From: Bryoerythrophyllum caledonicum
Taxonomy: Eukaryota; Streptophyta; Bryopsida; Pottiales; Pottiaceae
DNA: 64,000 bases
Assembly: GCA_963971425.1 (NCBI GenBank)
Contig: OZ020516.1
Location: forward strand, 17,286,593 to 17,350,592
Reading direction: 5' to 3'
Of this stretch, positions 1-63,500 are shown piece by piece (the stretch's first letter is position 1; every line of letters begins with the position of its first letter). Under the pieces are notes generated by a model. The model was not told where the DNA came from and searched no databases. It saw nothing but the letters and a program-made list of their open reading frames with translations. Made by a program: the position numbers and the translations under genes.

Positions 1-2619
1 GGACATCTCCTTGTTGGACAGCCTGCACGAGGAGTGGAGTTTCTTGCTGCCTCGACCCGGAATACACACACAGGCCTTCATAGTGTGTATTTCGTGGACG
101 GTCTTGTAATGCTCCTCTCATTTTATGGAAAAGCAGACAATCTCCGAGGGTCACAACGACATGTTGTTCCATTTCTTTGTAAAGATACGTCATTCTTACT
201 CATCAATTATCTCACATACGTTCGAGATATGGAAATTGTTGCTTCGAAGGCCTTGTATAGGGCGGACGAGACCGACCTATATAACCATGTAATACTTTTG
301 AAGGAAGGAAGTAAAATGACAAGTCGGGACCTATCAGAGGGTATTTCGGAGATCTTTCTCAAATACTTGACGGTCCCATTGACCCTCAATTCCTGGAGGC
401 ATATGGCCATTGCATGAATGGATAGATTTTTAAAGTGCACCAACATCTCACAGCTGGCATGCAATGGACCCTTGGATAGTCAGGCTGGCCACTCTCAACA
501 AGTTGCAAGTAAGATCTATGGTCGGTCTAATTTCGACCATTCAAGTATCAGACGTGACGAATTCCAATTGTATCGATTGGTATCTATTGAATGACATAGG
601 CTTTTGAGGCTCCGTACTGATGATCACGATGGGTCTGTGAATAATGACTTGGGGAGGAAGCAACTGCCTAGAGAACACAATCATATTGGCGGAGGTGCAA
701 GTCCACTTACATCCAATATCCACCACAACCACCACCATCATGAAATTAGGGTAGTTCATCGAACCGAAAATATTGATATAAAATTCCCATCCCTTGTTTG
801 TTATGAAGCCGTGATACATGGCCTCCTTGAATTGGGATACACAATGTTTAAGAGCTCATATCAAGCTAGTGCCGTGCACCAGATCCTGGACCGCCGAGGG
901 GTTGTACTAGCTATCCTACCTACTGGTGGAGGAAAGACACTTCTCTTTCTCCTACCTGCACTGGTTGAAAGGGGTCGTTTCACCACGGTTGTTATCTGCC
1001 CCTTTGTGGCTCTCAAGGAAGACATGCTACATTGCTTGGAGGCTACTAATCTAGCAGCTGAATTGTATTCCAACTCTTCTTCGCCCCTTGGAGTTGACAT
1101 TCTACTGGTCTCTATAGAGCATTGTTTATCCGGAGCTTTTCAAAGTCATCTGGGATATCTAAATGGACAAGGCCGCCTAGCAAGGATTGTAGTGGACGAA
1201 TGCCACGTGGGGATTACATCGAGCGCTTGGAGACCAGCCACCCGAGACTTGGAATATATTTGAAAAGTGCCTATTCCATTGCTCCTTTTGTCGGCTACGG
1301 TACCTCCAAGTATCGAAGGTCGCCTTACAAAATTCTTCAAGTCCCATCCATCCGTCATTCAAAGTCCAACAAATCGTTCAAACATCGCCTATGAAGTACT
1401 GAAGGTTGAAGGTTCTTTGAACGATGCCTTGTTGGCGATTCTACTAGCGGGGGAGAGCGTTCCAAAGTCCATCATCTTTCTTAGGGGGAGGGAGCAGACA
1501 CAAAACCTGGCGGCACTCCTTTGTTCTCGAGGGTTCACTGCTGTCTATTACAATGGGCATTTAGATGCAATGTCTAAAACTTCAGCCCAAAATTCATGGA
1601 TGAACGGCGTTGCAGATCTCACGGTGGCCACAGGGGCTTTTGGAACCAGAATTGATTTATGTGCAGTGCATCTTATTGTTCATGTGGATGAGCCATATTC
1701 AATGATTGACCTAGTACAAGAGAGTGGTCGGGGTGGCCGAGATGGGTTGCCCACCAGACATATCATCCTTTTACGAAGCACTTGGCAACCTCGGGAAGAG
1801 ACTTCCTCCGAGCTCAAGGAGTTCATATGTGGGTTGAGATGCAGGCGCTTGGTGCTTCAGGAATATGTCGATGGTTCGGGGCTGGATTGTTTTTCCTCCA
1901 CCTCGGCCCAATGTGATGTTTGTCAGTTGTTGGTGGGTCAAATTCAGTGCTTGACATCTCGAAGCACCGTCGTACCAGGATTGGATACTTCAAAGACTTG
2001 CATAGATCGGGAGGATATCGATGTATATGCCAACATGGATGGGGACACATCAGCTAAGCTTGATTATTCGCCATCAAAAAGAATATGCCTCGGAGGTGCA
2101 CTAGTATCCAAATCAACGGAAGAAGCACGAGAACATCACGCAAGTCAAAGGGTAGATGCATTGAGGTTCTATCAATATTTACAAAGAGCAAGAGACAAGT
2201 GCATCATTTGTACCATAAATCAACAACACCAGTGCGATCATCGTGTATCACAATGTCCATATGTTAGATACCTTTGTTTCAAGTGTTTGGCAAGTGGTCA
2301 TGGGTCCCCTACTTACAACAATCGATTGCAATGGAAGAACAACCAGTGCTTTGGTTGCGGATTGCCGAGTATACTTGGAGAACAAGTAATTCACCCTGAG
2401 AGGTTTGGACCGGGATGTAACTCCATGGGCCACGACAAGGTTGTACCAGCCTGCTGGTTTTTTTGGAGGAATTCACAATGGTTTAGAGTTGTGTTGGAGA
2501 GATGTGGATGCCTCCTCCACATCACTGATGACGAATTCGCCAAGTGGTTGACCACTCCAAATGCAAGTTACATGTCAAATGCCATTCACCTAGTCGTTTG
2601 CTATGTGAGCACCTTGTAA
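1..2619 (+). pseudogene. Recombinase-like plus RecQ helicase fusion, fungal telomere-linked type (5' end outside window)
   Basis: One reading frame runs from base 1 to 2619, broken only by TGA codons at 415-417, 592-594 and 1261-1263. The first ~200 codons resemble the recombinase-like region found before RecQ in fungal telomere-linked helicases: QPARGVEFL near the start, then VYFVDGLVMLL, SRDLSEGI and QAGHSQQVASKIYGR; the second TGA replaces the Trp of the usual WHRFL motif. A RecQ-type SF2 helicase follows: Walker A LPTGGGKT (~925-950), DECH box (~1195), LLLLSATVPPS (~1275), motif V ATGAFGTRID, motif VI QESGRGGRDG (~1712-1745). Cys pairs after this (CRR...CDVC, then CIIC, CFKC, CFGC) match the zinc-binding tail of the family. 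Such proteins presumably unwind DNA, and in fungi they lie near telomeres or in mobile elements. The frame is otherwise open, so decay is recent. Family call is firm; function is lost unless stops are suppressed. Confidence 0.85.
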
Positions 2620-34705: not shown

Positions 34706-37268
34706 AAGAAGAAGAAGAAGAAGAACGCCGGTCCCCGTAGGGGGCCGGCGTGAGTGAAGTGCCCGTTCATTCCACCACTAAGTCCATGCCCACCGGGCAT
34801 GGGTTAGTAGTATGGAACTACTTCCCCCTTTCAAGGGTAAACACTATGTACCCAATAACAAGTAACCAGAATAAAAGGGCCCTAGGTCCCAAAAAGTCCT
34901 AAAAGAGGGAGGGCAAGTGCGGTGAAATGCAAATGCGGGCGTAGATCTATAAAGGGGGGTTTGAAGCGTCGGGTAGGGGCTGGTTGTTTTCAAGTTTATG
35001 TTTATGTAGGAGTATCGACATAGCATGTTGAATTGCAATAGTGTTAATACTTGAAAAGGTGGTTTTGATTGAAGTGATGGGGATTTTAAATGTTTCTTCA
35101 CGGGTTGTCATTGAGGCAATGAAGGTGGTGGCTCTAGCACCCCCGGTGATGACAATGAGGGGGTCTACTTTCCATCCTAGTGCTTGAATATCGTCAAGTA
35201 GTGGTTGGTATTTATTTGTTTTGTTTGCAATAGTGTCCGGAGAGAATCTATCATTGCAATATGTGAATTCAATAAATTGGATGGTGAGACTAGGGTCTAT
35301 GTGGTTTGGTGGGGGGTCTTTGTATGATAGTCCTCTAACACATAATAGGTCCGGTTTGAATCTTGCATTACAGTGGCATCTTTGAGTATGACATATGCAG
35401 GGTAATAGCCAAGGAGGGACCGTATTTTCTTGTGGTTTGTCATTAAAGGTTCCGGCATTCATGAGAATGAAACACCGGGATTTGGTTGATGATATAAGTA
35501 GTTTACGAATAGCCCATACGGCTTTGTTATGTCTTTTAACAATTAGTGAGTGTATATGGGGGTTTTGGCACTGGAGTAAGACATGTAGCCATGTGTCTAG
35601 GTCCGTGGTGTTGCAAATTGGACATGTAATTGTAGGGAATCTTTCTATTCCAAAGAAGAGTTGTTTACGGGCATTGCCCATGTATTGCCCGGTGCGGAAT
35701 TTGATTAGGCATGTGATTTGTGGATCCGTTGTAGTGGGGTTTTTCCAGAAATTATTGGATAGTACATTATGAATGTTTGGGTTGCCAGTCCATTTATCAA
35801 TATTGGGGAAGTTTTCTGTAAGTTTTTCTAGGTTATTTACAAGATCATGTTTTTTGAGGTATTTGTCCAAGAATCGTACGGGGCCTTTATCGGGAGTTTC
35901 ACCCATAGAGGGCCATTCATATCTATGAAAGTAATATGGGGTGGCATGGGCGTGTTCGTATGGGTGTTCGGCATTCTTGTGGGTTTTTTCTCTTCCTTCC
36001 TTTGCTAGTTTGTCGGCTTGTTCATTGCCGTCGATATTAGCATGAGCACGGACTTTATGGAGTGTAGTAATCTGTGTACGGTTTTGGAGCATTTCAACCA
36101 TAGATGTAACAATAGTTTTATCCGGGTGACTATTGTGTAAAGTAGGGTGTTTAATATGTATATTAAGGAGATATAATACATTTATGCAATCTGTAAAAAT
36201 GTGAGCCGGTTCGTTTGGGTATTGAGTGGTGATTATTTTAAGGGTTTTGTGTATAGCCATCATTTCGGCTCTTAGAATATTTTGGAGTCCATGTAGTCTT
36301 TTACCTAGTTTAATTTGTTTGGTAGAATTGTATATCCCATAACCGGCTTTCTCTCGGTGCCAATGTCCTGGGCTTACTTCGGTTGGTTCTTTGAAAGAGC
36401 CGTCAGTGTAGTAGCTAAAGTTGGGGTCAAATTTAAGGTCTATATTAATTTGGTAGTAAGAGCGGGGGAGGCTTAGTTCGGTAGTTGGTGATGTGGAGAT
36501 GTTTGTGTGGGGGGTTTTAGACCATTTTTTGTTGCGGTTTATACGGGTTGAGATGGGTGTGGGGAGGGCAATTGCAGTGTATACCTTGTTAATGTTTAGA
36601 TTTTTTGCTATCAAAGTGAGATGAGTGAGGTTTTCTAGATTACCTATTTCACGAGTTTGTTGGTGTATACATAGGATACGTAGGGTTGTTGGTTCAAGGC
36701 AAGGTGTTTGTATTTGCGGTGGAATAGTGGGTTCTTTGTAAGTCATGGAGTCGGCTTCAAATAGTACTATGATGTGGGAGACCGGGAATGGGCCTAAGTG
36801 TGGGTTAGGGTTGTGGTACCAATGAGTGTCGGGAGTGATAATAATGGTGATATTGTGGTTGGGGTCATTATTTGCCGCTAGGCATGCCCAATGTATTGCT
36901 TGTTGTGTTTCTTCTTCGTTGTGAGGGTGTACGAGGCCTATTCCACTCCACTTATAGTCAAAGGCTTTTCCAAGAGACCCAAAAATCTTATCGTATTCAA
37001 ATGGAGAGTAAAATTTTGAGATTTTTGTGGAGCATGTAACGAGGGATGAGAAGTATGAATGTGTGATATTCAGGGATTTTGTAATAAGGTAGTCTAAGAT
37101 AGGAGCGGGTAATGTGTAGTGTGCATTTTTGAGGGGGTCATTTTTGGATATTCGGTAGTTATATCTTTGGTATAGCCAAACAATTTCGGTTTCGAATGTT
37201 TGGGGTGTGACCTTAGACAAAATGCATATATTTTCCAAGAAATTCGGACACCGTCCATTTTGAATTAA
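34706..37268 (-). mobile_element. 5'-truncated LINE (non-LTR retrotransposon), Dualen/RandI-like
   Basis: The minus-strand unit has an open frame (37268-34947), a ~240-bp 3' UTR and a (TTC)n tail at 34724-34706. The last ~100 bp (34806-34706) carry two hairpins, CCATGCCC-GGT-GGGCATGG and GCCGGCCCCC..GGGGACCGGC, and recur alone at 4.6, 11.6 and 59.8 kb with target duplications, which fixes the 3' end of this LINE. No reverse transcriptase lies upstream, so the copy is 5'-truncated or internally deleted. Confidence 0.85.
34947..37268 (-). CDS. LINE ORF2 C-terminal part: PCIF1-like segment, RNase H, CCHC zinc finger, restriction-like endonuclease
   Basis: The frame is open for 773 codons after TAA 37271-37269 and has no early ATG, as expected of a truncated ORF2. 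In order: FGSLGKAFDYKWSG and VHPHNEEETQQAIHWA..IIITPDTHWY (roughly codons 85-165), resembling the PCIF1-like accessory region I associate with algal and protist LINEs (inference). Then RNase H with catalytic acids in YYTDGSF, RAEMMAI, FTDCINVLYLL and HANIDGNEQADKLAKEG. Then CPIC......WLHVLLQC, a CCHC finger, followed by KPDLLCV....IQFIEFTYCND, which fits the PD...E/D core of the restriction-like endonuclease. RNase H followed by CCHC and this nuclease is the order of Dualen/RandI elements first described in Chlamydomonas. The uninterrupted frame implies recent activity of the source element. Confidence 0.8.
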   Translation of the reverse strand, partial: LIQNGRCPNFLENICILSKVTPQTFETEIVWLYQRYNYRISKNDPLKNAHYTLPAPILDYLITKSLNITHSYFSSLVTCSTKISKFYSPFEYDKIFGSLGKAFDYKWSGIGLVHPHNEEETQQAIHWACLAANNDPNHNITIIITPDTHWYHNPNPHLGPFPVSHIIVLFEADSMTYKEPTIPPQIQTPCLEPTTLRILCIHQQTREIGNLENLTHLTLIAKNLNINKVYTAIALPTPISTRINRNKKWSKTPHTNISTSPTTELSLPRSYYQINIDLKFDPNFSYYTDGSFKEPTEVSPGHWHREKAGYGIYNSTKQIKLGKRLHGLQNILRAEMMAIHKTLKIITTQYPNEPAHIFTDCINVLYLLNIHIKHPTLHNSHPDKTIVTSMVEMLQNRTQITTLHKVRAHANIDGNEQADKLAKEGREKTHKNAEHPYEHAHATPYYFHRYEWPSMGETPDKGPVRFLDKYLKKHDLVNNLEKLTENFPNIDKWTGNPNIHNVLSNNFWKNPTTTDPQITCLIKFRTGQYMGNARKQLFFGIERFPTITCPICNTTDLDTWLHVLLQCQNPHIHSLIVKRHNKAVWAIRKLLISSTKSRCFILMNAGTFNDKPQENTVPPWLLPCICHTQRCHCNARFKPDLLCVRGLSYKDPPPNHIDPSLTIQFIEFTYCNDRFSPDTIANKTNKYQPLLDDIQALGWKVDPLIVITGGARATTFIASMTTREETFKIPITSIKTTFSSINTIAIQHAMSILLHKHKLENNQPLPDASNPPL

Positions 37269-38200
37269 TTATGTACAAAATAGACCTCCTCGTGGGGGAA
37301 TTTTCCCGAAAGTTAATTATTGAATTTTCCCAAAAATTTATTGAACTTCATGGTGAAATTGGATAGCCTCCAAAAAAAAGATGTATTCGATAGGACGTCT
37401 ATGTCTGAGGTCCTAGGTTTATTGACAAAGGCTCCCTATCGTTGGACCTTGCTGTCATGTTGTTTTTGTACATAGGTTTTTATTTTTTATTTTTTGTAAT
37501 CCAGTTTTTGTTTTTTAAACTCTAGCATCTAAAGCTTATTTGGAAGGTAAATCATCCTCGGAACGGACTACGTGTACTTGACAATGCCGTCCATTTTCTT
37601 ATATAAAAAAAGCGACGTATATAATAGTTGATACACTATTACATATCATCTCATATTTCCCCTCATGGCAATTGTATGTGATATTAATTGTGTGTAAGCT
37701 GTAAATTGTATATAAGATGCAATTGTACGTGTGTAAATTGTATGTAAGATGCTCTACACAATTAACGCCTCCGTCCTTATCATTTAACGTCCATGCCCTA
37801 ATCACTTAACGTCCCCATCCTAATCACTTAACATCCCCCCTGATCACTTAAACTCTCCGCTTTGCATCCTCTGTGGCGGCCAAGTGGCACCAACGTGGCA
37901 GGAAGGTGGCGCAAACGTGGTAGACGAGTATAAGTAGGATAAGCCACGTCGCTAGTTTTTTACCATTCAAAAGAGTTAACTACGTTTGACCCTATCAGGC
38001 GGGCGGGGACCTCTATTAGAAGAGGCAGGTGGACGAGCAAACCGGACGTCTGTCTGGCATGACAACCATGGATAGAAATGATTAACACGCATCTCCTCTT
38101 CTAGTACTACGACAACGCAACCTTGGCACATGCTTTTGCCGAGGTGGAAGCGCTTGCCAAGGCGATTGACATAAGTGAAGCCACAGATTTGGTCATGACT
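37269..38200. other. Intergenic, possibly 5' flank of the gypsy element
   Basis: AT-rich with short repeats (TGTATGTAAGATGC..., CACTTAACGTCC repeated near 37800). No LTR boundary or primer-binding site could be recognised. Confidence 0.4.
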
Positions 38201-38261
38201 ACGACAGACGCTTCCAAGCCCAATGTGTTGGCTATCGCATCCAAAAGCTTGGCGAAGGCAT

Positions 38262-39110
38262 AACCTAAAAAGCATTGTTGGACTTGTAGGGAAGCTGGTT
38301 ACACCAAAAGGACTTCAATTGCTTCATAAAGAAAAGGGGCAATACGGTGAAGGCTAAGTCTACAACCGAGACGGCCAAGCCTGGCAAAAAGACAGGGGGC
38401 AAGGGAAGAATCCTATGACATGTTTCCACTATGGCAAGTCTAGCCACAGTGACGAGAACTATTTTGTTCTTCATCTAGAGAAGAGCCCAAAGTCTTTAGC
38501 TGCTGGATCGGATTTGATGAAGACGCTTCAAGCCAAAATTGCGCAATTAAAGAAGCAGATGAGCACGATGGCCTCTTTCGAGCAATTGATAGACACATGG
38601 ACTACAATGAGGAGTCACGACTCATTTTCAGCCATGGATGCTTACTTGTATGGCGTTTTTGGGCAAATTTTGGCAGCGGTTTCCACTCATGCCCAAGTTA
38701 CCGCTCAAGCGGTGGTACCTTCTTCTACTTTGGCGGATAGTAGTGGTCCTCTGCACCACGCGAGTATACCGGATCACATTAGGTGGCCATGCAGGCCAAG
38801 TTGGCCGCGGAGGCTATTTCCGTATTTGAGGCCAACGCTACATCTACATCTACAAGCAACAATTTGGGCATCAGCCATAGATATCTGAAGTAGTTTACTG
38901 TCCAATGTTGCCGTACGATCGGCAGGGAGCAACGCAATTTGCGTCCATAGGTCAAATGGTTGCTGAATGATGATGGAGTGATCGTAGTTGGCCATACGGA
39001 CAACAACTCATCTTGAGCTACGTCCCTACGTGTTATATTGGACTCTGAAGCTCAGCCTGTAACGATTGGCAAGCAACTGGCTTAAAATTTCAATTTAGGT
39101 GCTTTTAATC
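38262..39110 (+). pseudogene. gypsy gag zinc knuckles and aspartic protease, decayed
   Basis: KHCWTCREAGYTKR at ~38270 and CFHYGKSSHSDENYF at ~38420 are two degenerate CCHC knuckles (Cys to Tyr in the second). Near 39026, VILDSEAQPVTIGKQLA corresponds to the retroviral-type protease core, with the D-S/T-G triad changed to DSE. Stops and frameshifts intervene, so neither product can be made. These domains would have packaged element RNA and processed the polyprotein. Confidence 0.7.
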
Positions 39111-39707
39111 TCAAGCCTTGCCCTAGACACGGAGAAGATCATGGGTTACACCCAACATCTATTGCAATTAATGTTCGGCATGGGATCTTGTCCATTGTTT
39201 CCCCACATATATCTTTAGTGCACAGTGAGTGGTGCCACCAACTATGACATTCTAGTAGGTCAGCAGACACGTTATCTACTTCGTTTCAAGGTAGATAACT
39301 GGAAGGAAGAAGCATGGATTAGGCCTGGATAGTCTACCGATTATGGCATAAAGGAGCTCATTCTCGTTGTCTTTTTAGCTAGCACGGTGACTTCAACAGC
39401 AGAGGCTATGTTTAGGTGCAGTGCTATGGCATCAGATTTGCCATGTGGTTTGACGCTTCACGAGGAGACATGTGCATTTTTGACCGGGGTAGCAAAATCA
39501 CATGAGCACGTACAACCAAAGATTCTGGCACGTCTTTGCAAAGATACGCTTCCGCCATGGAAGACTCAACTGGAGATCACTTGGTCAAGAGATTGTGGAC
39601 ACTCTTGCGGTCAAGAGATTGTAAACACTCTTGATGCTCCCCAATTCTCTGTGGATTTTTCCACTTCGTTGTTGGCTTGCACTATTTGGTGGTGACTACT
39701 AGATGAG

Positions 39708-40690
39708 GCTATTACCCTCGTGGAGTTTTTTGCTGGTATTAATATGGAGATTGCGGCTATCTTTGAGGCTGGATTGAGGTATGGCAGTACATCCACGTAG
39801 ATAGTAGCTTTGCAGCCAACCGTGCCAACCACCATAACATGCAGACTTGCAACGTCTATTCGGGTTGTATCTAAAGTATCTACCACATTTTCTAATCCGC
39901 CATTGTTTTGGCAAGTTGCTACGTAATGTGACGTTGATTAGGGAGGATGACCTCCAACGTTTGGGTCACATGGATTTGGTAATTGTCCAATGGCCTTGCC
40001 AAGGCCATTTACAAGCGGGTCGTGGACGAGGATTGAATGACCCTCGGTCATATCTCTTTGAGGATTTGCTTAGGCTCATCCAATGATGAATTATCTACTT
40101 GTCGACATCGTAACGGTACATTTTTTAGAATGTATCGCCCATAGGGGACACATGGACAAAGGTGCGTAAAGATGGTACATACATCCATCACCTTCTTAGT
40201 CCTCCTATTTTTGTGAAAATTGTCGCGTTGGGCTCATACGCCCATCGGCTACGTTGAATATGGACCAACCTGACTTCTTTGGAAATACTCACCTCAGCAT
40301 TGGCTTAAAGTGCACTGACCTACTCGTTGTGAGGTCAATGATATCTCGGATGATGACCGTGTTTCTACAGAGGTCACCAACGATGACAAGCCACCTTTGG
40401 TAGTAGTAAACCGCGTGGGCTTTTCTTGGGGGCTATTTCCTACATTTATCTGTTTTTCGGGGTTGTTTGCTTTTCGGACCGGTAGTCCAAATATGGTTTG
40501 GGATTCTACTTTTCAAACTTGCAAGGAGCCTTCTGGCGATGAGGGTAAGGGAACAATGGGCTTTTTGACAGGCACCACCGCCGCACTGGATCTATTTGAA
40601 GATCAACGCTGTTACTTGTTGGATCCAACCATTGATCTCAACAACCGATTTAGGTTTGTGGCCTATGTTTCACCATCAAGCATTGTCCGC
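39708..40690 (+). pseudogene. Captured cytosine-5 DNA methyltransferase domain (DNMT) in the gypsy element
   Basis: Several C5-MTase motifs can be read in order. Motif I: TLVEFFAGINMEIAAIFEAG (39711 on), usually F-x-G-x-G. Motif II region: YIHVDS (~39788). Motif IV with catalytic Cys: LVIVQWPCQGH, Cys codon 39997-39999 intact, then GRGLNDPRSYLF. Motif VI: YIF*NVSP (~40117), where the ENV Glu codon is TAG. Motif VIII: GSYAHRLR*IWTNLTSL (~40231), with TGA where Trp is expected. Target-recognition/motif IX-like: KPPLVVVNRVG (~40390). Motif X region: TMGFLTGTTA...LLDPTIDLN (to ~40645), with GNA lost. It would methylate cytosine in DNA. It lies between protease and RT in the same orientation. De-novo-type enzymes captured by retrotransposons have been reported, to my knowledge, in dinoflagellates and charophyte algae. 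Confidence 0.85.
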
Positions 40691-41313
40691 ATAATCATCC
40701 ATGCATGTTGGGGGCAAATTTTGATGGACAAGGGGCAGCGATGCCACATCTCATAGAGGTTAAGAAGCAAAGCTATTTTTATATTTGAAAAGGCACGCCA
40801 AAGGAGCATCAAGGTCATCGTATCTTTGCCGCTTTGGCCAAGGACTTTGGTTGAGAGGATGCCCCGAATATCTTTTTCCAATTTTATCATCACAATATGG
40901 GATTTTTTGTAGATCCCATTAGCAAGGAGTCTGGGGGTATAAATGCCCTCTCTGCTAATAAGTAACAATCACCGGCCGTGCCATTACGCTATGAGTCTCC
41001 ATTGGTGGAGAAGGAAACCACGGAATTTGATTACTAGCCTTTGGATTTGGAGCTACATCTTATTGGTGCGAAGGCAGAAAGGGTACGAGGTTCATACGTG
41101 CATATTGTAATTGTTTTGTTTTTAGCCTCCACGATTTAGCAAGCTACAAAGGCCAATTGATTCATATCTAATTAGAAGACGACCACCAGATCTTCCGACA
41201 ACCGCATAAGTTGAGTCGCTCAAAGAAAATTGGCGTTCAAAAATTGTTGTTAGGTATTGGTGGCCGCCAGCATGATTGAGCTCTCCAACAATAAGTACGC
41301 TTGAGCTAAAATT

Positions 41314-41885
41314 ATGCCATCTAAGAAAGACATCTTTGGCAATTGGACAGAGAAGCAGATGTTTGGAAATTGTAGGCTAGTCAATCGCAAGACCAAGTTA
41401 GATTGGTATCCAATGCCCAAGCCAGAGGAGTTGTTTGATGCGGTGGGCCATGCTAGAGTGTCCAATACTCTAGATTTGCGGTCCGGTTATCACTTGTTAC
41501 CATTGATGGTGGATAATTGGGTGAAGACTATATTCTAAAGAGTTGATCAAAATGGGAGATATCAACTTTACCATTGAAAGTTTCTCCTATTTGCCTTCAA
41601 GAACCCACCAGCTAAGTTTTATCCTATGAAGGAGAGGCTTTTGGCTGCGATTTGGGTCATAGCTCATCTTAGGCCATATTTGTCATCCCGGGCCTAGGCA
41701 AAAATTTATATAGTTGACCAACCATCAACCTTTGAAGTGGCTCATGGAGTCTGATAAGCTTAGGCTTTGTTGCTTCAAGAGTATGACTTTGAGGTTGTAC
41801 ATCAAGTTGGCATCATGAACTTCGATGCAAATGGCCTTTCTTGCAATCCAAGTCCATTGGAAGAGGGTTTAACTAGTGGCATAGG
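41314..41885 (+). pseudogene. gypsy reverse transcriptase (N-terminal part) and RNase H, decayed
   Basis: CRLVNRKTKLDWYPMPKPEE then NTLDLRSGYHLLPL (motif A Asp kept) is Ty3-type RT. The frame stops at 41536-41538 and the palm with the YxDD box is missing: the sequence jumps to KERLLAAIWVIAHLRPYL, the RNase H/connection region, and LLQEYDFEVVHQVGIMNFDA in a third frame (~41771), where Ty3 elements have the last RNase H segment. So an internal deletion of several hundred bases removed the active site. Confidence 0.8.
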
Positions 41886-42228
41886 GACTATGACAGAGAG
41901 CTAGTCCTGGGATGGCATGTAGCAACCTACCTCTCTTTGATGTCTCGATCACCATCCACGTTGCCAAATCAAGCGACCAATGAGGAATTGGAGAAGGCCT
42001 AGGTTGTTACCTATGTGTAACAAGACGTTTCAATCTTATACAAGCTACAACATGGGACATTTCCTCCACCTCTTTTTGCTATGGAGCGTGATTAAGTTGG
42101 ACACGGAATAACAACGTTTTGTTGAGAAAACAACCTTTTATTTTGAGTATAGCCGGATGGAACTAGGCGCATAGTTCCCAAGCCAAATCAAAGGGCTTCG
42201 TTGATATGATAAGCACACGAAGACCTAG

Positions 42229-42990
42229 GACATTTTGGGGTACGACAGACTCATTTGATGTTGCGCACCCAATACTGCAGGACCGACATGTATCAAGAGG
42301 TCGCCATGTATGTTTCTTGGTGTGAAGTGTGTCATCGAGTCTGATCTAGCTTCAACACTTTGTCACCGAAATTGCAATCTTTGCCCATTTTCGGGCTAGG
42401 TTATCAATGGTCTTTTGACTTTGCTAGTCTTTTTGTTGTCGTTCCATGTAGAGCTATATACGTATTGGTGATGGTAGAGCATTTCAGCAAGTAGATCAAG
42501 CTCGTGCCCCTATCATAGAACTCTTTGGAGTTGGTGGCCATGGCATTCCTAGATCGGATGTTGGCTCGATTTGGAGCTCCAGCTAAGGGATTGACTGACT
42601 AGAGGTGTGAGTTCGTTGCTGCTTTCAGAGTTTTGTGTACCAAAACATTAATTGACCATCGTACCACTTCTTGAAATCATCTAGAAGCAGACGGTTTGAC
42701 GGAGCGTGTGGTTCACACCGTCAAGCGTGGCCTACGGAAGTATAGATTACAGAAGTACTAGTTGTTGTATAGGCAAGAGCCAATTTTATCAAGTTCCGTA
42801 TGGGAAAAATTGGCTTCGGTTGTAGATTTGGACGATCCACGGGTATTAATCCAATGTCTACGTGATCAAGCCGAGTTCTCCAAGCGGGCCATGTCGATGG
42901 CTATAGAGAACATATCCATTGCTTAGCATCGTGACACATTATGATACGCTTGTACTCGTAGGAGTGCCTACCGACCTTAGTTGGGGCGTT
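42229..42990 (+). pseudogene. gypsy integrase, decayed
   Basis: HFGVRQTH..CEVC is the HHCC zinc-binding region (~42235-42335). FDFASLFVV (first catalytic Asp, ~42417), LTD*RCEF (second Asp, ~42590) and EADGLTERVVHTVKRGLRKY (Glu, ~42688) give a D,D-35-E core broken by TAG codons. VDLDDP and HRDTL..A further on match the C-terminal part. It would insert the element cDNA. Confidence 0.8.
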
Positions 42991-43209
42991 TCTCCACAGA
43001 AGACTATGTTTATCTTTAACGTGAGGCGCCCACAAGGCTGGACATCAAGGCATGGCACACTATTCTTCATGTGAAGGATGTGTTGTCTAATGGTTTCTTG
43101 TTGCAGGAAGGCAAAGATGGTTGGGAGTGTCACGAGCACACTAAGAATTGTGCTCCCTATCATTTATTTATTAATGGTTGCGTTGATCCCAACTTGGCCG
43201 TTGTGCCAT

Positions 43210-43335
43210 AGCGGCCTTCTGTGTTTTTACGTAGTAAGTAGAAGAAAGCGGCTACTATGATCCTATGTGACCATTGCTAGAGTAAACGGCATATGGCTTG
43301 TTTGACGCCGCCTCTTTTTTCAACCGTTTGGAGAT
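43210..43335 (+). pseudogene. PHD-finger relic at the gypsy C-terminus
   Basis: KKAATMILCDHC*SKRHMACLTPPL reads as the middle of a PHD zinc finger (C-D-x-C....HM.CL.PPL); the first Cys pair is degraded and a Trp-Cys-Pro end is lost. It follows the integrase tail with no other gene between. PHD fingers bind histone H3 tails and might target integration; that role here is inference. Confidence 0.6.
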
Positions 43336-43340
43336 TGGAC

Positions 43341-44150
43341 TTGCCCTAGTTGTAGGTCTTCAAGCCACGTTTGACTCGATCAGATGACTTGAATTTCTTG
43401 TTGATATGTCACTGGTATGGTGCTCAGCCATCCAGTTAGAGGTTCCAACTTTATTTTAAAGATAGGCAACGTTGTCCTAATGGAAATTCTTCCATCATGT
43501 AGATATTAATACCAGTGTGGATATGTTTTGATTACAGCTAGCGGTTAGATGAGGTAAAAAAGTTTGGTCATGGTGAGAATCACGATTTGAGGATTTGGGC
43601 AAGTGTTAGCATGTAGGTGCTACACCGCTCTTGTCACTGCTCAAAAGGATAGGTAGCGGGTTGATTGGTATTTTTCCTGCGTCGCTAGCGAGCCAAGCCG
43701 TGGGCCGCCCAACCACTCGACGGGCTCGATCGGGTTCGAACCCGGACCAGCGGCGGCCACTGACTACGACATTTCCAGCCAACCAAGTCCACGACTTGGC
43801 AACCAGGTTGTACGAATCAACACCTTTATACGTCCGTACCATCAGCTATCTTACGATAATTTTTTTTTTATTTAGTTATTTTTTTTATTTTACTAATCTT
43901 ATTGGTTGGAAGGTCTAAGTTTTTAGTCTTCCAATAAATAAAAGACTAGAGGATTTTATGTGGTTGAAAGTGGAAAGGATAAGAAAGTAATGAAGTACCT
44001 TGTGGGATACTTTGGATAGGATGACATGGGCAGGAGTGCCCACGTCCACTTGAGGTGGAAAAGATTAGGGGGAAGATTCCTTAGTGAGTGTATATGTGTG
44101 CGGGTGAGAGAGCAAGGGTTTGGAGCAGACCTTTGACTGTGTGTAACTCG
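43341..44150. other. Intergenic; tRNA T-loop-like motif near 43.73 kb
   Basis: CGGGTTCGAACCCGG (43731-43745) is a self-complementary B-box-like sequence, but no cloverleaf could be drawn around it. The rest is unassigned and may include the 3' end of the gypsy element. Confidence 0.4.
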
Positions 44151-44790
44151 TTGAGCTTGAATGGTATGGAATTGAAAATTTGAGATCTTGTTTCTTGTTT
44201 CAAGAGCTTTCCATACTCGTTTCAATTTTTGAATTCGGAGTTGTAAAGAAAAAGTTATTGAGGTTTTAATTCTGTGAAAATCCGAGGCCATCCATTGAGG
44301 GGCAGAGGTTTCGAGGAGCCACAACTTTTTCTGTAGTTCTCAATTTGATTTGAGATTTTGAGGGACTGTGCATCTCTATCTTAGCTTTCTAGAAAGATAT
44401 TACAATTGAGATTTGGAGTTGTGAGCAAGAAGTTATAGAGATCTGAATGAATAGGGGTAGGCAAAACTTTGATTGTCCATAACTTTTGGACAGTAGTTTA
44501 GAATTGTTTGAAAATTGGAAGGTACGTGAACCATGGTCATAGCTCTTCAAAAAGTTATTACAATTGAGATTTGGAGTTTTGAAGAAGAAGTTATGAGCAA
44601 TTGAATATCTGGAGGGGCAGAACTTTGAACTCGTATAACTTTCGGGTAGTAGTTTAGATTAACTTGAAATTTGAAAAAGTGTTAGTTGTCTGAATTAACT
44701 TTCCAGAGAACTATTACACTTAGTATTTGAAGTTTTGAGTCATCTGTGTCACTTGATTGAAGGTTACAGCCTTGGTGAAACTTTTCCATT
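44150..44790 (+). repeat. Degenerate tandem repeat, period ~150-170 bp
   Basis: The phrases ATTACAATTGAGATTTGGAG, GAAGAAGTTAT.GAG, GGGGCAGAACTTTGA and TAACTTT.GG.AGTAGTTTAGA recur three to four times in order. Such text is common next to plant LTR retrotransposons; its class is not determined. Confidence 0.6.
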
Positions 44791-45604
44791 GTGTTTTTGA
44801 ACACTTCTTTTGAGTTTCTTAGTGTTTTTGAACACTTGAAGACTTTGGAGTTGAAGGATGGAAGAATTGAAGACTTGAGGCTTGAAGAGAAGAGAAGATG
44901 GAGACAAGTGTGTTGTGGCTTGTGGTCCGATTTCTTTTTTTGTGATTTCAAGCCAGCTTTGGAGGCTAGTTGTATTTCAATTCTGTTCTTATAAACTCTG
45001 TTGCGGCGAAGTGGGGTTAATTGCCCACACGGTCGTGTTTATGTCGTTCCCACCGGTGAGGCACGTTTGCTGGTCACCGTGGATTTGAATTTTAGGAGCC
45101 AATCTTTCGGACGGTTTCAGCTTGTGGTCTGGCCGTCCCGTTCTACCCGTCCGAGGCCGTGGTTTCTTATCACCCACCTTTACCCTTAACCCTTTAGAGC
45201 CACCACAGGATAGGCCAACGGGGAGGAGTTTGAAGACTGAAGACTGAAGACTGAAGACTGGAGGCTGAAAACCGAAGATTACAAGATTTGACAGAACTCC
45301 GTAGCAGACTATAAGAAGTCGCAGCCAGATTCCTCGCATATTCTCAAAGCGCGCTCCTCTCTACTCGACAACGTGGAGATTGACCAAGGGATTGGCGACA
45401 AAGTTGCCTAAGGCGTATAAAAATGGAGCTCACATTACACTTTGCCTATCCACTCTTAGTTATCTCTCTGTCCGCTTATTGATCTGGCAACGAACAACAT
45501 CTTCAACTAGATGCATACAATTATTGCTGCAACATCACCGTGGCAATAGTCTTTTTAATGTTGTTTGGTCCTAGCTCTTTAGATGGGTTTTTAATCCGCT
45601 AAAG

Positions 45605-46190
45605 GGGGAATTTGAGGGTATGCTGGACATAGTTGTATTCGTCTACGTTTTTTGCTTATATTTGATATTGATTGTGGCTCTTCGTTTGTTGTGTTTAGCA
45701 ATCTTTGTTTATACAACAACTGCCAAGGGATGTGGCGTGAAGGATTGTACCACATTACATAGTCATAGCGTGGATTAGTTAGTTCTATTCTACAGACGTT
45801 AGGGACATACATCCGCCACACCACATCCATCCAATGGATGTATTTCATCTATTAGAGTTTTGCTAGTGTGCATTTAGTGGCGTGTACGTCTTTGACTTGA
45901 CGTCTCTGTCAAGTCAAGCTTTGTGAGTAAGTTTAGAGAGTGATAGTGATTGTTTTTACTTGTAAGTGATGTTATTTCATTGATGAAGACATTGTACCTC
46001 CTATTCTATATTTGCACTTGTTGATTCTCTTCTTATATTGTGCGAGATGCTTGACTTGATAAGTGATTTGCTACATTCTCCTTAAGGGTGTGCTGAACAT
46101 AGTTGTGTTTGTCTATGTTTTTCGTTTATTTGATGTTGGTTGTGACTCACAAATTGTTGTGTTTAGCAATCTTCCTTTACGCAACATACA
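45605..46190 (+). repeat. ~110-bp direct repeat
   Basis: 45605-45720 and 46083-46190 share GCTG.ACATAGTTGT.TT, GTCTA.GTTTTT and TTGTTGTGTTTAGCAATCTT in the same order, 370 bp apart. No TG...CA borders found, so I do not call LTRs. Confidence 0.6.
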
Positions 46191-48101: not shown

Positions 48102-48530
48102 GAAGATACATACCTTACATAGTGGGATCCTACAATCTAACAACACATGTAGGGCAATCAATGTAGTACATGTCAAACAAAGAAGCATTCAATTAGGCAT
48201 GGAGAATGGGGGTAAGAACCACTGACAACTTTACTCATAGAATATATTGAACAAAAATAAGCCGCTGAAGAACTAAATGTAGGGAAGTAGCTACATACTT
48301 TGTAATACTCGCTCAAGATACATAGCATACATAGTAAGGTCCTACGGTCTAACAATACATGTAGGGCAATCAATGTAGTACACATCAAAAAAATAAGCAA
48401 CCAAATAGGCGTGGGGAATGGGGGTAATGACCATCAAAAAAATATATTCATAGAATAAATTGGATGAAAACCAACGCCAACAGAATTCAATGTAGGGAAC
48501 CGACTACGTACTTCGTAACACTCGCTCAAA
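48102..48530 (-). repeat. ~210-bp tandem duplication covering the end of the second FCP1-like ORF
   Basis: 48102-48312 and 48313-48530 share ATACATGTAGGGCAATCAA, TAGGCRTGGRGAATGGGGGT and AATGTAGGGAA..ACTAC and end in ACTCGCTC. The second unit contains the last codons of the upstream minus-strand ORF; the first holds a diverged copy of them. Confidence 0.75.
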
Positions 48531-49128
48531 GTGCCATGGTTCAAGCAGTCTACGATTAAACTTTACATCCATCGGGTGCCCCCGCAGATACTCCTTCACC
48601 AAGGCGTAAGATCGCAGCGGAAGGATGAACGGAAGCAACGCTGTGCCAATATTAGGTATAACATTGGATGTGTTGGGTAAGGTCATTTCACCATGCCATG
48701 ACTTCGGAAAGTAGCAAGCAAGGTCTCCGTTGAAGACATGACGCATTGGCTGGTCATCAACCATCAATATTTTGTCAGGAAGACAAAACTGCTTTGTCTT
48801 CCGGTCCGTTGAGAGTCTATGAAGAACCTTGTCACAAAAAGGATACAATTGTAGCCTTGAACACTTGTTTCGTCCATAACAAAAAAGAAGTCTTGACCTT
48901 ATGCCTTCGGGGAGGAGGGCTTCAAGGACCTTCTTCACGCGCGCTGGGACCATGGACGACCATATATCAACTTGGAAGGACCTCAGAATTATACTGAAGA
49001 ACTTTAGGAGACCAGGCCGAACAATGATGTTGTTCCGATTGAAGCGTCGCGGGGAGTAGTTATCGTATTGCTCGAAACAAAGCAATCCGTTGACAGACAA
49101 CACGATAACTTTTGTCGAGTCGTCGCGT
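48504..49128 (-). pseudogene. FCP1-like HAD phosphatase domain, catalytic Asp lost (last exon)
   Basis: The frame opens after a TTGTCGAGTCGTCG-side acceptor (minus-strand GATCACAG/CGACG near 49128) and encodes RRDDSTKVIVLSVNGLLCF, RPGLLKFFSIILRSFQVDIW, KILMVDDQPMRHVFN and PRSYALVKEYLRGH-like C-terminal text. FCP1/TIM50-type HAD enzymes start with hhhDxDGTL/DLNG; here the nucleophile position reads SVNG, so phosphatase activity is unlikely, while the late DD pair is kept. Upstream exons could not be found in the 380 bp before the next gene. Same strand and 380 bp downstream of the related gene at 49504-50348, so probably an old tandem copy. A pseudoenzyme scaffold is possible. Confidence 0.6.
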
Positions 49129-49169
49129 CGCTGTGATCATAGAGAAAGATAGAAGTTATAAACAACATC

Positions 49170-49343
49170 ATGGATCGTAGGATCCCACCACACTGCCATC
49201 CATACTACAAACAAATCATCCATACAAGATCCTTAACTACTCCATCCATGAGGGTCATAGGATCCTACCACACTGCTATCCACATCACAAAAATCATACA
49301 GTATCCTTAACTACTACATTCCTCACGGTCGTAGGATCCTACC
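49170..49343. repeat. GATC-palindrome cluster (3 copies)
   Basis: TCGTAGGATCCTACCA-type motifs near 49173, 49255 and 49325 lie between the two FCP1-like genes. Each centres on GGATCC. Confidence 0.8.
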
Positions 49344-49503
49344 ACCCTAAGGATAATTCATGGGAGATATTGCGATTAATAATATTCAAAATAAGATGAT
49401 GGCCTCAATACTGAAGAGTGTCTGATAAAGTAGAGGTACATCCTACAAGTTTATATTGAAACAAAATATACAAAATATACACATCACCAATACGAGTGAG
49501 TAG

Positions 49504-50348
49504 TCATTGAAATGCCCCAACTTTGGAATTCCATTTTTGAGAACACCCAATTACAATGTTCTCAGCCAACGCAGTGGACCTAAATTCTCTAGGAACCGGA
49601 CATACGGGAAGGGGATGGTTACGGACATATTCGGCCATAGAGAGATTTGAGGAAAACATATTCTCGAGCCATGGAAGCATAGTGTTCATGAGAAACTTGT
49701 CCTTCAGGTCACCTGTCTACGTTTGAGGATGAATCACTCTGAACTCATCGTTGAGGAGGTTCTTCTCCGGGCTGTCGTCAATGAGCAATGTCAGACTGAG
49801 GTCTGCGTGGTCAACATATTTCTTGACGTTTTTAAGGTCTTTGAGCATGTACTTCTTCTCAACGTTGTTCCCCGCTCTCGGAAAGCTCGACTCCGTAATA
49901 TCAGATTGTGACATAACTGTTAGGTCATCTAGCTTTACAGTAGAACTACCCAAACCCACTTGTAACATGCTATCAACATTTTTCCTCATGGCGCAACTCC
50001 ATACCACGACAGTAGCCTTATTTGTCAGCACCTTCAGAAAATTTGCACACTCAGGTCTAGCGACAGTTTTACGCCCCTTATTGTACGATCTGTGAATCAT
50101 AAATCCATTCAAGTCCAGCACAACAGTGTACCGAGGTTGCCTTATCTTTGCTGATTTAGGGGCTGATTTAATGGTGGGTGCACTGAGTTTTCCTGCAGAA
50201 AACAAACGTTGCAAGAATGAGTCTCCAATACAGAAAACTAATAATAAGCAGTAGAATTGTCTAGAATCATACCTTCTCTAGAGGAACCAAAGCCCTTATG
50301 TACCACCGATAATGGAACCTTTTCACGACGTTGAACAGTCCCCGACAT
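49504..50348 (-). pseudogene. FCP1-like HAD phosphatase gene, two exons, one in-frame TAG
   Basis: Exon 1 50348-50273 (ATG at 50346-50348) ends AGAGAAG/GTATGA; intron 50272-50193 (80 bp); exon 2 starts CTGCAG/GAAAAC at 50192. Phases match (1/1) and the total is 255 codons ending TGA at 49504. The product has a short basic leader, then VVLDLNGFMIHRS (nucleophile Asp kept, second Asp replaced by Asn), RPECANFLKVL, TVVVWSCAMRKNVD, and LLIDDSPEKNLLN, the classical HAD motifs of the FCP1/SCP family that removes phosphate from protein Ser/Thr, such as the RNA polymerase II CTD. A TAG at 49717-49719 follows FRVIHPQT; the frame continues TGDLKDKFLMNTMLPWLE, typical of the family C-terminus. With a single lesion it could be a recent pseudogene, a readthrough case or a sequencing error. 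Confidence 0.75.
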
Positions 50349-60536: not shown

Positions 60537-63500
60537 ATGTCTTCAAGTTGCGGACCGGACGATGAGTTTACTGATTCTGCGAGCGTTAACCTTGATGTTG
60601 AAGCCAATGACGAGCGTAACCGATATGAACCGAGCATGAGTGCTTTACTTTGCTACCCTGGACATGGCGTTGTTGGACATGCCATTGTCATTGAAGCCGT
60701 TCCTACTAGGTGTTGGCTTGGCGTCGACATTGATCTCGCATTCGCGGAATTGACTCTTCTTCGACCTGTTAAGATACATGCACGGGCGCGAAGTCTACTC
60801 ATTCATCCAATGTAGGAGGGCATCTCTGTCTTGGCTGAATTGATTGGTAGAACAATTCTCTGGGAGACAGCAAGCCTTGTCCTGACTTCAGACTCAGGCG
60901 AAACTTCTGGGTCGACAAACACCCCTCCTTTTGTACCTCAGGTAGAGTGGGTGGGGAGGTTGTGAAGCGCTTTAACGGTGATGGGGATCTTATGGCCTCT
61001 GGTCGCATTAATTGTGTCTATCCGATTGAGCCGTTTGAAAATAGTACTTTGGGGGAGGGGAACATTGGCACCACAGTATTTGACGTTTTCATCGGAGATC
61101 CTAGTGACATTATGTGTCATCAAAGGTGGCCCATTTCCGACTGCGCATTCGAAGGAGGACATAGTCTTAGCGATACGCTTGACCATTTCAATCGTCTTCC
61201 TGACGCACCGGACGCGAATGCGCACCTTGATGGCCACCCAAAAGCACCATACCGGTTTGTTCGTTGCAAAAAACAGACTGATGAGAAGATCAACGCGTTC
61301 GCTAAGAAGACTATGCCGGAAGAGATTCAAGCAGTGAATTCGCAATCATGTTGTTCTGACGAATGCGTGCGCTTAATCAGGCCCAGGATACTCTTTTCAT
61401 TCGCCAGAAGTTTTGGTTGAAAGACTTGACGAACGCCGGGATTATGCAAGGTCTGTGGGTGGACAATTACGCTATATGGGCAACAATCGGAAACGAAAGT
61501 ATGTCACTTGACTAGGTCAAGATATCTGTGCAACAGCGTGGTACAAAATCCATGGCATACCGAAATCAACATTTCACAAATACATGGACCAGTACAAGAA
61601 GGGCATCGTTTCCTCTACGCACAGGAACAAAGACGTCAAACAACCCTGCCTTGGAACCGTGCAAGCACTTGGTACGATTACGGTTATCATCAATGAGAGT
61701 GTTGATCACATGTCCAATCAGATGAGGTTGACAGTACCAGGGCGGATGGACACTCTAAAATTTTTGCCCTCTGGACATAGTTGGAAGAAGATCTAGGCTG
61801 ACGCCACAGAGGTATTACTCTACATAATACACCACATGAACCACTTATCCGCATTCACGTGTACTTTAAGCACTTCATGGTTATGATAATGTCCTAAAGG
61901 CCCTCTATCTTTGCTCTGTACATCTAGTTCATGGTAGGATCCTACGATCGCCAAGGGTATGCTACAATCTTACAGTCCTCCCATTCTGTGGTTATCCTCA
62001 ATCTGATTTAAGTTCAATTCTCACTGGGCACTCACCTGACGCACTTAATGTTTTGACTCTTTTGCAGTCAAATCTACAATGCGGGTTGCCCGCGGTTTCG
62101 CAATCCGCTGTGAGTAGAATCAGGAGGGAGCACTTCAACAATGTTGCGGTTAAACTCGTTGGGAGCTCATTTGCAAAGTGCACCCTCTATGACACTCTAT
62201 TGAAGTACATCAACAGATCAGTTAAGGGTTCCGCCGAATATAATTCGTTCGTGAAGCACAAACAAACCCACTGCAACCTCCAAGCTTTGTACAGGCGTGT
62301 GTACCATATCTGGAGAGAGGAGTCGAAGCGGCAAAAGGGCGATATTCTTTGTATTATCTACGATAATATGGATACAGCCAAGATAACTATTCCTCGTATG
62401 CGAGTTTCTACCAAACTCACATCACCCTTGGGCCAGTTCCCAATGAACGTCACCGGTATCGTCACGCACGGTCATGGAGATGGTGCCTATGCTCACTACT
62501 CCACTGACTTGTGGCCAAGAGACTCTAATTACACTATCTCCTCCCTTGCGAGATTGCTTTGGCGTCTCGAGGAACCACCCATTCGTGAATCAGTTAGAAT
62601 TTTTTCCCATGAGCCGGCCAATTCTTTCTTTGAAGCTATGCTCAGAGGGAAGTCCAGATGTATTCAGCTCTTACCTCCGGTAACGAATAACTCAACTGTA
62701 CCCGTCCCCCTTCCAAAAAAGTTATATCTGCAGCTTGACAACTCTGCAAAGGACAATAAGAACCAGTTTCTCATGGTGTTCTTATCGATGTTGACTTGTC
62801 GAAGGGTGTTCAAAGAAATCCAAGTTGGTTTCTTATTAGTCGGGCACACGCATGAGGATATTGATGCTTACTTAGCCACTTATCCAAGACCTTGAAGAGC
62901 CAGAATATTTATATTGTCGCGGAATTTGATGATGTCCTTCATGCAGTCGTAGGACTTGGGTTTTATGCTCGAGTGTGTTCAAGAGGTTGCTGATTTCAAA
63001 TCTTTCGTCCATGGTTATATTCGTGATGGTGCTGACAGACTTGTTGGCTTAGGAGAAATGCACTTCTTTAAATTCTACGTAGATAAAGAAGGGTGGCCCG
63101 TCATGCGATTTAAGGAACTTGCAGTTCATGCGCACTAGCTACCCAGAGACAAGCCTGCTATCCGTCTTTGGAAGGAGGATGCTGACGGAAAACCGATGCT
63201 ACCTTTCGGGCTCCCAAATCCTATACCTTTCAGGCGGTTGTGGGGCGATGAAGTTCCTTCTTCCACAGGCAATCCAGAGAAGGCAAGAGAGAAGGTTTCC
63301 AAAGCCCTTGATAAGAGGTTGTTCATCAAGTGTGGAATTCGAGGTTATATAGAATTTTGAGAACGCGGGATGCTTGAAAGTATGGGCTTTCATAAGGATT
63401 TTCCACCTTATATCGAATACTCGAATGGAATACTTGTAGAACTAGAGAAACCTCTTCCTCCCACTCCTACGGCCTTGGTAGAAGGCTTTTGGCCAATTCA

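Follow-up and report, generated by a model that had tools for sequence, protein, structure and literature searches.

Capture of DNA methyltransferases (DNMTs) by retrotransposons is reported from dinoflagellates and one charophyte alga in the main text of PMC5890265, and a passage of PMC12344493, citing that 2018 work, places some DNMT3 enzymes in long terminal repeat (LTR) and DIRS retrotransposons of streptophytes and dinoflagellates. KnitGypsy-Dnmt3 of Klebsormidium nitens combines Gypsy domains, DIRS-like repeats (Fig. 4 legend), and a Dnmt3-class methyltransferase (MTase) under purifying selection; this MTase gave no detectable methylation in yeast, a result that its authors call inconclusive (PMC5890265, section 10). 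SymbioDIRS-Dnmt3 of Symbiodinium holds a Dnmt3 in a retrotransposon with split repeats, and its MTase was shown to carry out de novo CG methylation in yeast; methylation of cDNA is proposed for such elements in the discussion of the same paper, the activity there being that of SymbioDIRS only (PMC5890265). Here we describe an MTase-bearing Ty3/gypsy retrotransposon of the moss Bryoerythrophyllum caledonicum, represented by a decayed copy in a 64,000-nucleotide stretch (the window; C3:17286593-17350592) and by sister copies elsewhere in the genome searched (437 Mb, 894 contigs). With 58 LHC and 31 NAC matches, this genome has the gene content of a land plant.

The window copy is dead and belongs to a lineage of green plants and algae. 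The element has two open reading frames (ORFs) separated by UAG, is under sequence constraint, ends in TG...CA, and is flanked by 4-bp duplications. The best explanation we can offer, and one to which we would give an even chance, is that it methylates its own cDNA and that a PHD finger on its integrase steers insertion.

The element resembles KnitGypsy-Dnmt3 in its Gypsy domains, Dnmt3-class MTase, DIRS-like repeats, and purifying selection, a likeness by description, as the K. nitens MTase sequence was not recognised among the proteins obtained. It differs in its land-plant host, where there are more than 200 junction sites; in the position of the MTase in the gag-protease frame before UAG; in having its ends and target duplications documented; and in the PHD finger that its integrase carries (the term "PHD" is absent from the main text of PMC5890265, though the figures may show one). 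SymbioDIRS-Dnmt3 has a tyrosine recombinase, whereas the moss element has a DDE-type integrase and target duplications. A mostly open-access literature search, extending to main-text passages of PMC5890265, found no retrotransposon with both PHD and DNMT and no Gypsy-Dnmt3 in land plants or chlorophytes. As far as searched, then, the occurrence in a land plant at this many junction sites, an integrase with a PHD tail, a layout built around a readthrough context, and the integrase-type ends appear to be new, as do the relatives in liverworts and chlorophytes and a second layout with the MTase before the integrase.

Full-Size Copies

A search of the genome with PF00145 gave 123 scored places among 1055 candidates, many in frames of 1350-1371 codons. 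Fifteen copies were chosen from these places for their long frames, and in this selected sample both frames are fully open in seven (L009, L010, L012, L013, L017, L019, and L022), one or both being cut or fused in the other eight. The open copies have an ORF1 of 1353-1371 amino acids (aa), encoding gag, protease, and MTase, and an ORF2 of 1041-1047 aa, encoding reverse transcriptase (RT), RNase H, integrase, and PHD; a single stop codon separates the two frames. Pfam scans covered both frames of L009 and L017, ORF1 of L013, and L015; the MTase scored 46-53 bits, and RVT_1, RT_RNaseH, Integrase_H2C2, and rve were above cut-off in L009, L017, and L015. The zf-CCHC domain was above cut-off in L009, L013, and L015 and below it in L017, and the matches to protease and Retrotrans_gag were sub-cut-off. 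The order protease-RT-RNase H-integrase and the CCHC gag assign the element to Ty3/gypsy (Metaviridae). It falls into two subfamilies, A (the L009 and L013 types) and B (L016, L017, and the window copy).

The broken and differing frames of the window leave room for the idea that chance brought together an MTase and an RT from separate elements, or from an element and a host gene. Against it stand the seven copies in which neither frame is interrupted, the terminal repeats and target duplications of the copies tested, and a fused polyprotein elsewhere (P0018); we regard it as extremely improbable and rejected it on the strength of the full-size copies: MTase, RT, integrase, and PHD lie in one element between terminal repeats, as the initial reading of the window from its letters (the sequence-only reading) had proposed, with the qualification that MTase and RT are kept apart by a conserved stop codon.

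The Copy in the Window

The window copy spans 38072-46186 and is ~72-77% identical in DNA to L016 and L017 (blastn). The sequence-only reading had placed the element at 38200..43340; it is indeed there, but it extends beyond 43340 and is split by an insertion. The L017 proteins align collinearly from gag through protease, MTase, RT, RNase H, and integrase to PHD over 38072-43371 (tblastn), with 44-76% identity per piece; all relics are on the plus strand. The gag relic, comprising the second half with the CCHC region (38072..38780; L017 ORF1 residues 291-382 and 398-529), is 55-57% identical to L017, with pieces in different frames and three stops. It is followed by a relic of the linker and aspartic protease (38783..39335; ORF1 residues 627-741 and 751 onward), for which the protease label derives from the sub-cut-off Pfam matches in sister copies.

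The relic of a Dnmt3-like C5 methyltransferase (39696..40645; tblastn pieces 45-66% identical to L017) lies between protease and RT, where the sequence-only reading had seen it. One of its frame pieces (39838-40083) matches PF00145 (DNA_methylase) at 3.3e-5 and 23.9 bits, against a curated cut-off of 22, so that profile homology to C5 methyltransferases is present in the window as well as in sister copies; in the Pfam scan of nine window frame pieces, the only other above-cut-off score was in an unrelated minus-strand ORF. Of the motifs previously read here, motif IV has an undamaged catalytic Cys codon (PCQ at 39994-40002), and motif VI reads F*NV, with a stop in place of Glu.

The ORF1/ORF2 junction, read directly, is TAA CAA TCA (40963..40971), where L016 and L017 have TAG CAA TCA. 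The RT relic (40966..41652; L017 ORF2 residues 1-229) is deleted after ~41620, with ~600 bp lost at 41619/41622 relative to L016 and L017 (blastn gap, L016 6194-6803). There follow relics of RNase H (41602..41877; ORF2 415-509), of the integrase with its H2C2, rve, and C-terminal modules (41877..43208; ORF2 512 onward), and of the PHD finger at the integrase C-terminus (~43209..43371; ORF2 to residue 1041); the stretch 41877-43316 contains 21 stops. These stops and the RT deletion bear out the view that the copy is dead.

A later 1.9-kb insertion (43473..45368, no strand assigned) splits the 3′ part; collinearity with L016 is lost there and returns at 45369. The 3′ untranslated part (45369..45615; 77% identical to L016 8757-8996 by blastn) has a purine-rich run just before repeat B1 (45616..45718), which is followed after a 2-bp spacer by repeat A2, starting with TG (45721..46085; 74% identical to A2 of L016 by blastn), and by repeat B2, whose CA is the 3′ end of the element (46086..46186). 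Neither a 5′ repeat nor the first part of gag was found. B1 and B2 are only 79.6% identical, which marks the copy as old. From L016 to the window, C-to-T changes occur at 0.297 in CG, 0.308 in CHG, and 0.187 in CHH, against 0.076 for T-to-C; the excess in CG and CHG is what methylation and silencing would leave in a plant repeat and does not reveal who methylated it.

The Stop Codon between ORF1 and ORF2

The junction reads TAG CAA CCA in subfamily A and TAG CAA TCA in subfamily B. When subfamily A junctions were matched with the codon left free, TAG was present in 196 of 205, and a reversed-pattern control gave 0; the non-TAG codons among the 100 matches listed were TAA (one), TAC (one), TCG (two), and CAG (two). 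Both subfamily B copies (L016 and L017) have TAG. The sequence UAG-CAR-YYA is the readthrough context of the tobacco mosaic virus (TMV) type, and both junctions fit it, making this a candidate readthrough site that here lies between gag-protease-MTase and RT-integrase-PHD. Since the copies are young, the stronger argument is that the motif has survived between subfamilies A and B, whose neighboring residues differ. Some relatives (P0018 and P0021) have no stop and one long frame. In the moss, the junction codon is CAG in L014 (C3:4094151) and at C4:20018369, and the L014 frame continues into RT (1710 aa).

Class, Origin, and Constraint of the Methyltransferase

Profile, tree, and predicted fold all class the MTase as Dnmt3-like; a fold search and a sequence search both rank DNMT3 first. 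Motif IV is PCQ (ECQ in many relatives), compared with PCN in DNMT3A, and for this reason we use the label "Dnmt3-like". Pfam scans of sister copies found no PWWP or ADD domain as in animal DNMT3; in the account given in PMC12344493, the companion of DNMT3 is another domain in land plants, and there is none in protists and algae. No chain named as DNMT1 or CMT is among the 57 PDB chains listed at E 0.1, which we report as an absence only. A genome search with pieces of DNMT3A gave 150 scored places of 528, element copies among them, and a host DNMT3 gene was not distinguishable.

The PCQ of motif IV is that of bacterial enzymes, and matches at a threshold of 1e-5 extend to 415 phage records; both would fit an MTase acquired from a phage or bacterium instead of a eukaryotic Dnmt3. 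(A match to PHROG 116 at 1.9e-28 is a profile score and is not comparable with single-sequence scores.) Against such an origin, the element profile gives 74-79 bits to DNMT3 pieces and no more than 60.4 to any of 29 viral-contig frames, which had been selected for that motif; DNMT3 and the element rows fall on one side of a tree (99/97), at a place where long branches meet; and DNMT3 comes first in the fold and sequence searches. That tree, our first of the MTases, included 15 viral rows, seven of the 29 being named for dropping, and rows shorter than 150 residues, B_L001 among them, were left out. We consider a phage or bacterial source very unlikely; NCBIfam dcm, which was below cut-off, also disfavors it. 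As a separate observation, L001 (C14:16016358-16017317) is a complete frame for a C5 methyltransferase of bacterial type (218 bits) within a 22-Mb contig; the adjoining frame looks transposase-like by eye, and contamination, assembly error, or transfer are options.

In an alignment of 10 MTase domains, the moss domain included, C100, Q101, E143-N144-V145, R183, and R185 are invariant, and the motif IV Cys is kept in 35 of 40 relative rows. Ratios of nonsynonymous to synonymous substitution (dN/dS, Nei-Gojobori) between L009 and L013 are 0.05 for MTase, 0.03 for RT, 0.01 for RNase H, and 0.03 for integrase, with 0.11 for PHD, 0.10 for protease, and 0.09 for gag; five inter-domain stretches of the same pair gave 0.07, 0.14, 0.23, 0.24, and 0.38. 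In this pair dS was 0.5-1.6. Three closer pairs have MTase ratios of 0.08, 0.14, and 0.17, and some inter-domain stretches of close pairs reach 0.8-2.6 on few changes; the comparison of subfamilies A and B is saturated for most segments. By these ratios the MTase is under purifying selection.

The PHD Finger on the Integrase

PF00628 (cut-off 24) matches with 37.5 bits in L009 and 40.9 in L017, in agreement with the PHD relic that the sequence-only reading saw after the integrase; the L015 frame, which ends inside the PHD, gave no match. In both MTase layouts (before RT and before integrase), the PHD stands at the integrase C-terminus, and this constant place indicates a stable part of the integrase. 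The combination of MTase and PHD singled out earlier thus holds for the element, but the PHD belongs to the integrase and is not a passenger of the MTase. By its sequence class, the finger is predicted to bind the H3 tail, probably with unmodified H3K4. Chromoviruses are Ty3/gypsy elements with a chromodomain on the integrase; the moss element likewise has a putative histone-reading module at the integrase C-terminus, in its case a PHD, with an MTase added.

Repeats and Element Ends

The repeat plan is A-internal-B-A-B or longer in 13 of 16 copies, the remaining three stopping at the first B. Among 14 subfamily A copies, the second A-B is absent in three, single in 10, and triple in one; both subfamily B copies have one. 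The element opens with the TG of repeat A and closes with the CA of repeat B. Both ends were available in 15 copies, the 16th lacking a 5′ end in the piece examined, and 14 of the 15 are flanked by the same 4 bp on either side; in the remaining copy the flanks have 6 bp in common (TAGTGT), offset by two. Such ends and duplications are as a DDE integrase leaves them and speak against tyrosine recombination. No tyrosine recombinase was present in the Pfam-scanned frames, and the rve integrase and 4-bp duplications argue against membership in DIRS, the tyrosine recombinase elements.

For the junction of B followed by A in subfamily A, 67 occurrences were counted, among them a triplet on C9 and a pair on C12. 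A purine-rich run stands directly before B1, with none before A2; reverse transcription should therefore yield B+A repeats, and insertion would use the B/A point. No tRNA primer site was recognised by eye after A1, with no dedicated search made. The arrays with n = 0 and n = 3 in A-internal-(BA)n-B were considered as proof of circle integration and set aside as indecisive: once the element is inserted, identical arrays with the duplications still in place would result from unequal crossing-over or from recombination of B1 with B2. A1 and A2 are 98.6-100% identical in six copies, which points to recent insertions.

Relatives in Plants and Green Algae

Three protein searches returned 22, 289, and 247 matches, the best 120 being listed for the second and third. 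The third used the integrase C-terminus, including the PHD, as query, and the presence of PHD in 120 of its 120 listed matches is no measure of PHD frequency; we dropped for this reason the idea that the PHD predates the MTase or is more widespread. Among the best 120 of these 247, the MTase lies before the integrase in 38 and before RT in two, and none was seen in 80, many of which are partial or start near RT; five of the 80 have more than 700 residues before the integrase.

P0147 of Marchantia polymorpha has a protease piece, an MTase piece, integrase, and PHD; this 612-aa gene model (Mp_7g09570) may be a decayed copy or a domesticated gene. An MTase is present in P0042 of Calypogeia fissa and, in degenerate form, in P0172 of Volvox reticuliferus and P0175 of Tetrabaena. 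P0252 of K. nitens runs from RT to PHD, with no MTase in that protein, and none was seen among the matches listed for Volvox africanus, Haematococcus, and Chromochloris (by gene label). P0018 is a fused polyprotein with MTase and RT in one frame.

In the MTase tree, 45 element MTases stand on one side of DNMT3A/B (100/100), and those placed before the integrase group together (99/99), except for P0225, a long branch that strays; because of this row, no bootstrap tree has the before-integrase group whole, and the deep forks are open. In a quick, midpoint-rooted integrase tree, the moss shares its side with Marchantia and K. nitens, opposite most of the chlorophyte-type rows (support 88-94). Two before-integrase rows lie on the moss side; the tree requires five changes of layout label, two forced by starred branches. 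Distances for MTase and integrase correlate (r 0.61 for 40 rows; 0.51 for 34 rows of one layout; 0/2000 permutations each). Together, the trees and this correlation favor one old MTase capture, inherited with the element and followed by movement inside pol; alternatively, MTases may have been captured more than once from a single source outside the sample. The clade of before-integrase MTases favors a single relocation, with the stray P0225 and the five label changes of the integrase tree against it. With this distribution, a rarity reported from one alga looks like an old family of elements that ranges widely across green algae and plants.

Other Features of the Window

On the minus strand at 34950-37268, a 773-aa frame has RNase H (49.9 bits) and PCIF1_WW (31.5 against a cut-off of 31.1) and is perhaps a retrotransposon holding a piece of a cap-methyltransferase gene. 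The window also contains two NIF-type phosphatase pieces (48507-50277, minus strand), DEAD and Helicase_C in two adjoining frame pieces (595-2616, plus strand), and a DUF7869 frame (61870-62892, plus strand).

Proposed Mechanism and Implications

If most ribosomes stop at UAG, the MTase would be as abundant as Gag and would enter particles together with the RNA, and readthrough would produce RT-integrase-PHD. The MTase, whose activity is predicted, would methylate the cDNA of the element itself, with CG as the expected context, either inside the particle or on integration, and the integrase PHD would bind unmodified H3 tails and steer insertion to silent chromatin. New copies would arrive pre-marked as ordinary heterochromatin, sparing host and element; the element may in this sense control its own chromatin state, as the sequence-only reading supposed.

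Several observations weigh against this scheme. RNA folding downstream of UAG is just mildly better than that of shuffled sequence (z -0.8, -1.8, -2.1), P0021 carries an MTase and no PHD by profile, and histone binding by the PHD is a prediction from its class. The C-to-T decay can be wholly the work of the host's own methylation. The K. nitens MTase gave no detectable methylation in yeast, inconclusively so in the words of section 10 of PMC5890265. Five of 40 relatives show no motif IV Cys in the alignment (two as gaps) with the domain still recognisable, among them the volvocine P0172 and P0175, where a dead MTase has perhaps been kept, and a non-catalytic role may therefore exist. These last points, with a position on the Gag side of the stop that probably gives structural amounts, would suit an MTase kept mainly as a DNA- or RNA-binding or structural part of a Gag-protease-MTase precursor, catalysis being secondary or lost. 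We think this unlikely in view of the catalytic positions invariant in all 10 aligned domains, the Cys of the other 35 rows, and MTase dN/dS of 0.05-0.17. The MTase might alternatively act on the host, altering its methylation or competing with its machinery and so weakening silencing of the element; the 205 junctions and the six copies with near-identical A repeats imply that the element escapes silencing at times. No direct observation supports host-directed action, however, and the old window copy is marked by heavy methylation in plant contexts, making it less likely still.

Self-methylation with PHD-steered insertion can be joined to the history of the family in a fuller account, which we put forward tentatively and regard as rather unlikely as a whole. 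A Viridiplantae-wide Ty3/gypsy clade predating the chlorophyte/streptophyte split would have taken in one Dnmt3. A UAG readthrough switch would keep the enzyme at the level of Gag, and in the chlorophyte branch it would have been relocated to another site of pol; the element would integrate from circular DNA, reverse transcription yielding B+A repeats and its PHD-integrase cutting the internal B/A palindrome (GACA-GC-TGTC) to give A-internal-(BA)n-B, with n of 0, 1, or 3. Were this so, pre-methylated copies would be delivered into H3K4-unmodified chromatin. That one element combines DIRS-like repeats and DDE-type ends is relevant to the replication of split-repeat elements, and the layout, with the MTase before the stop and the PHD on the integrase, predicts dose, particle content, and target choice, all testable in a bryophyte. 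A land plant with more than 200 junction sites, and with certain copies whose frames are open and whose repeats are identical, together with relatives in liverworts and chlorophytes, suggests an old and successful strategy rather than a curiosity.

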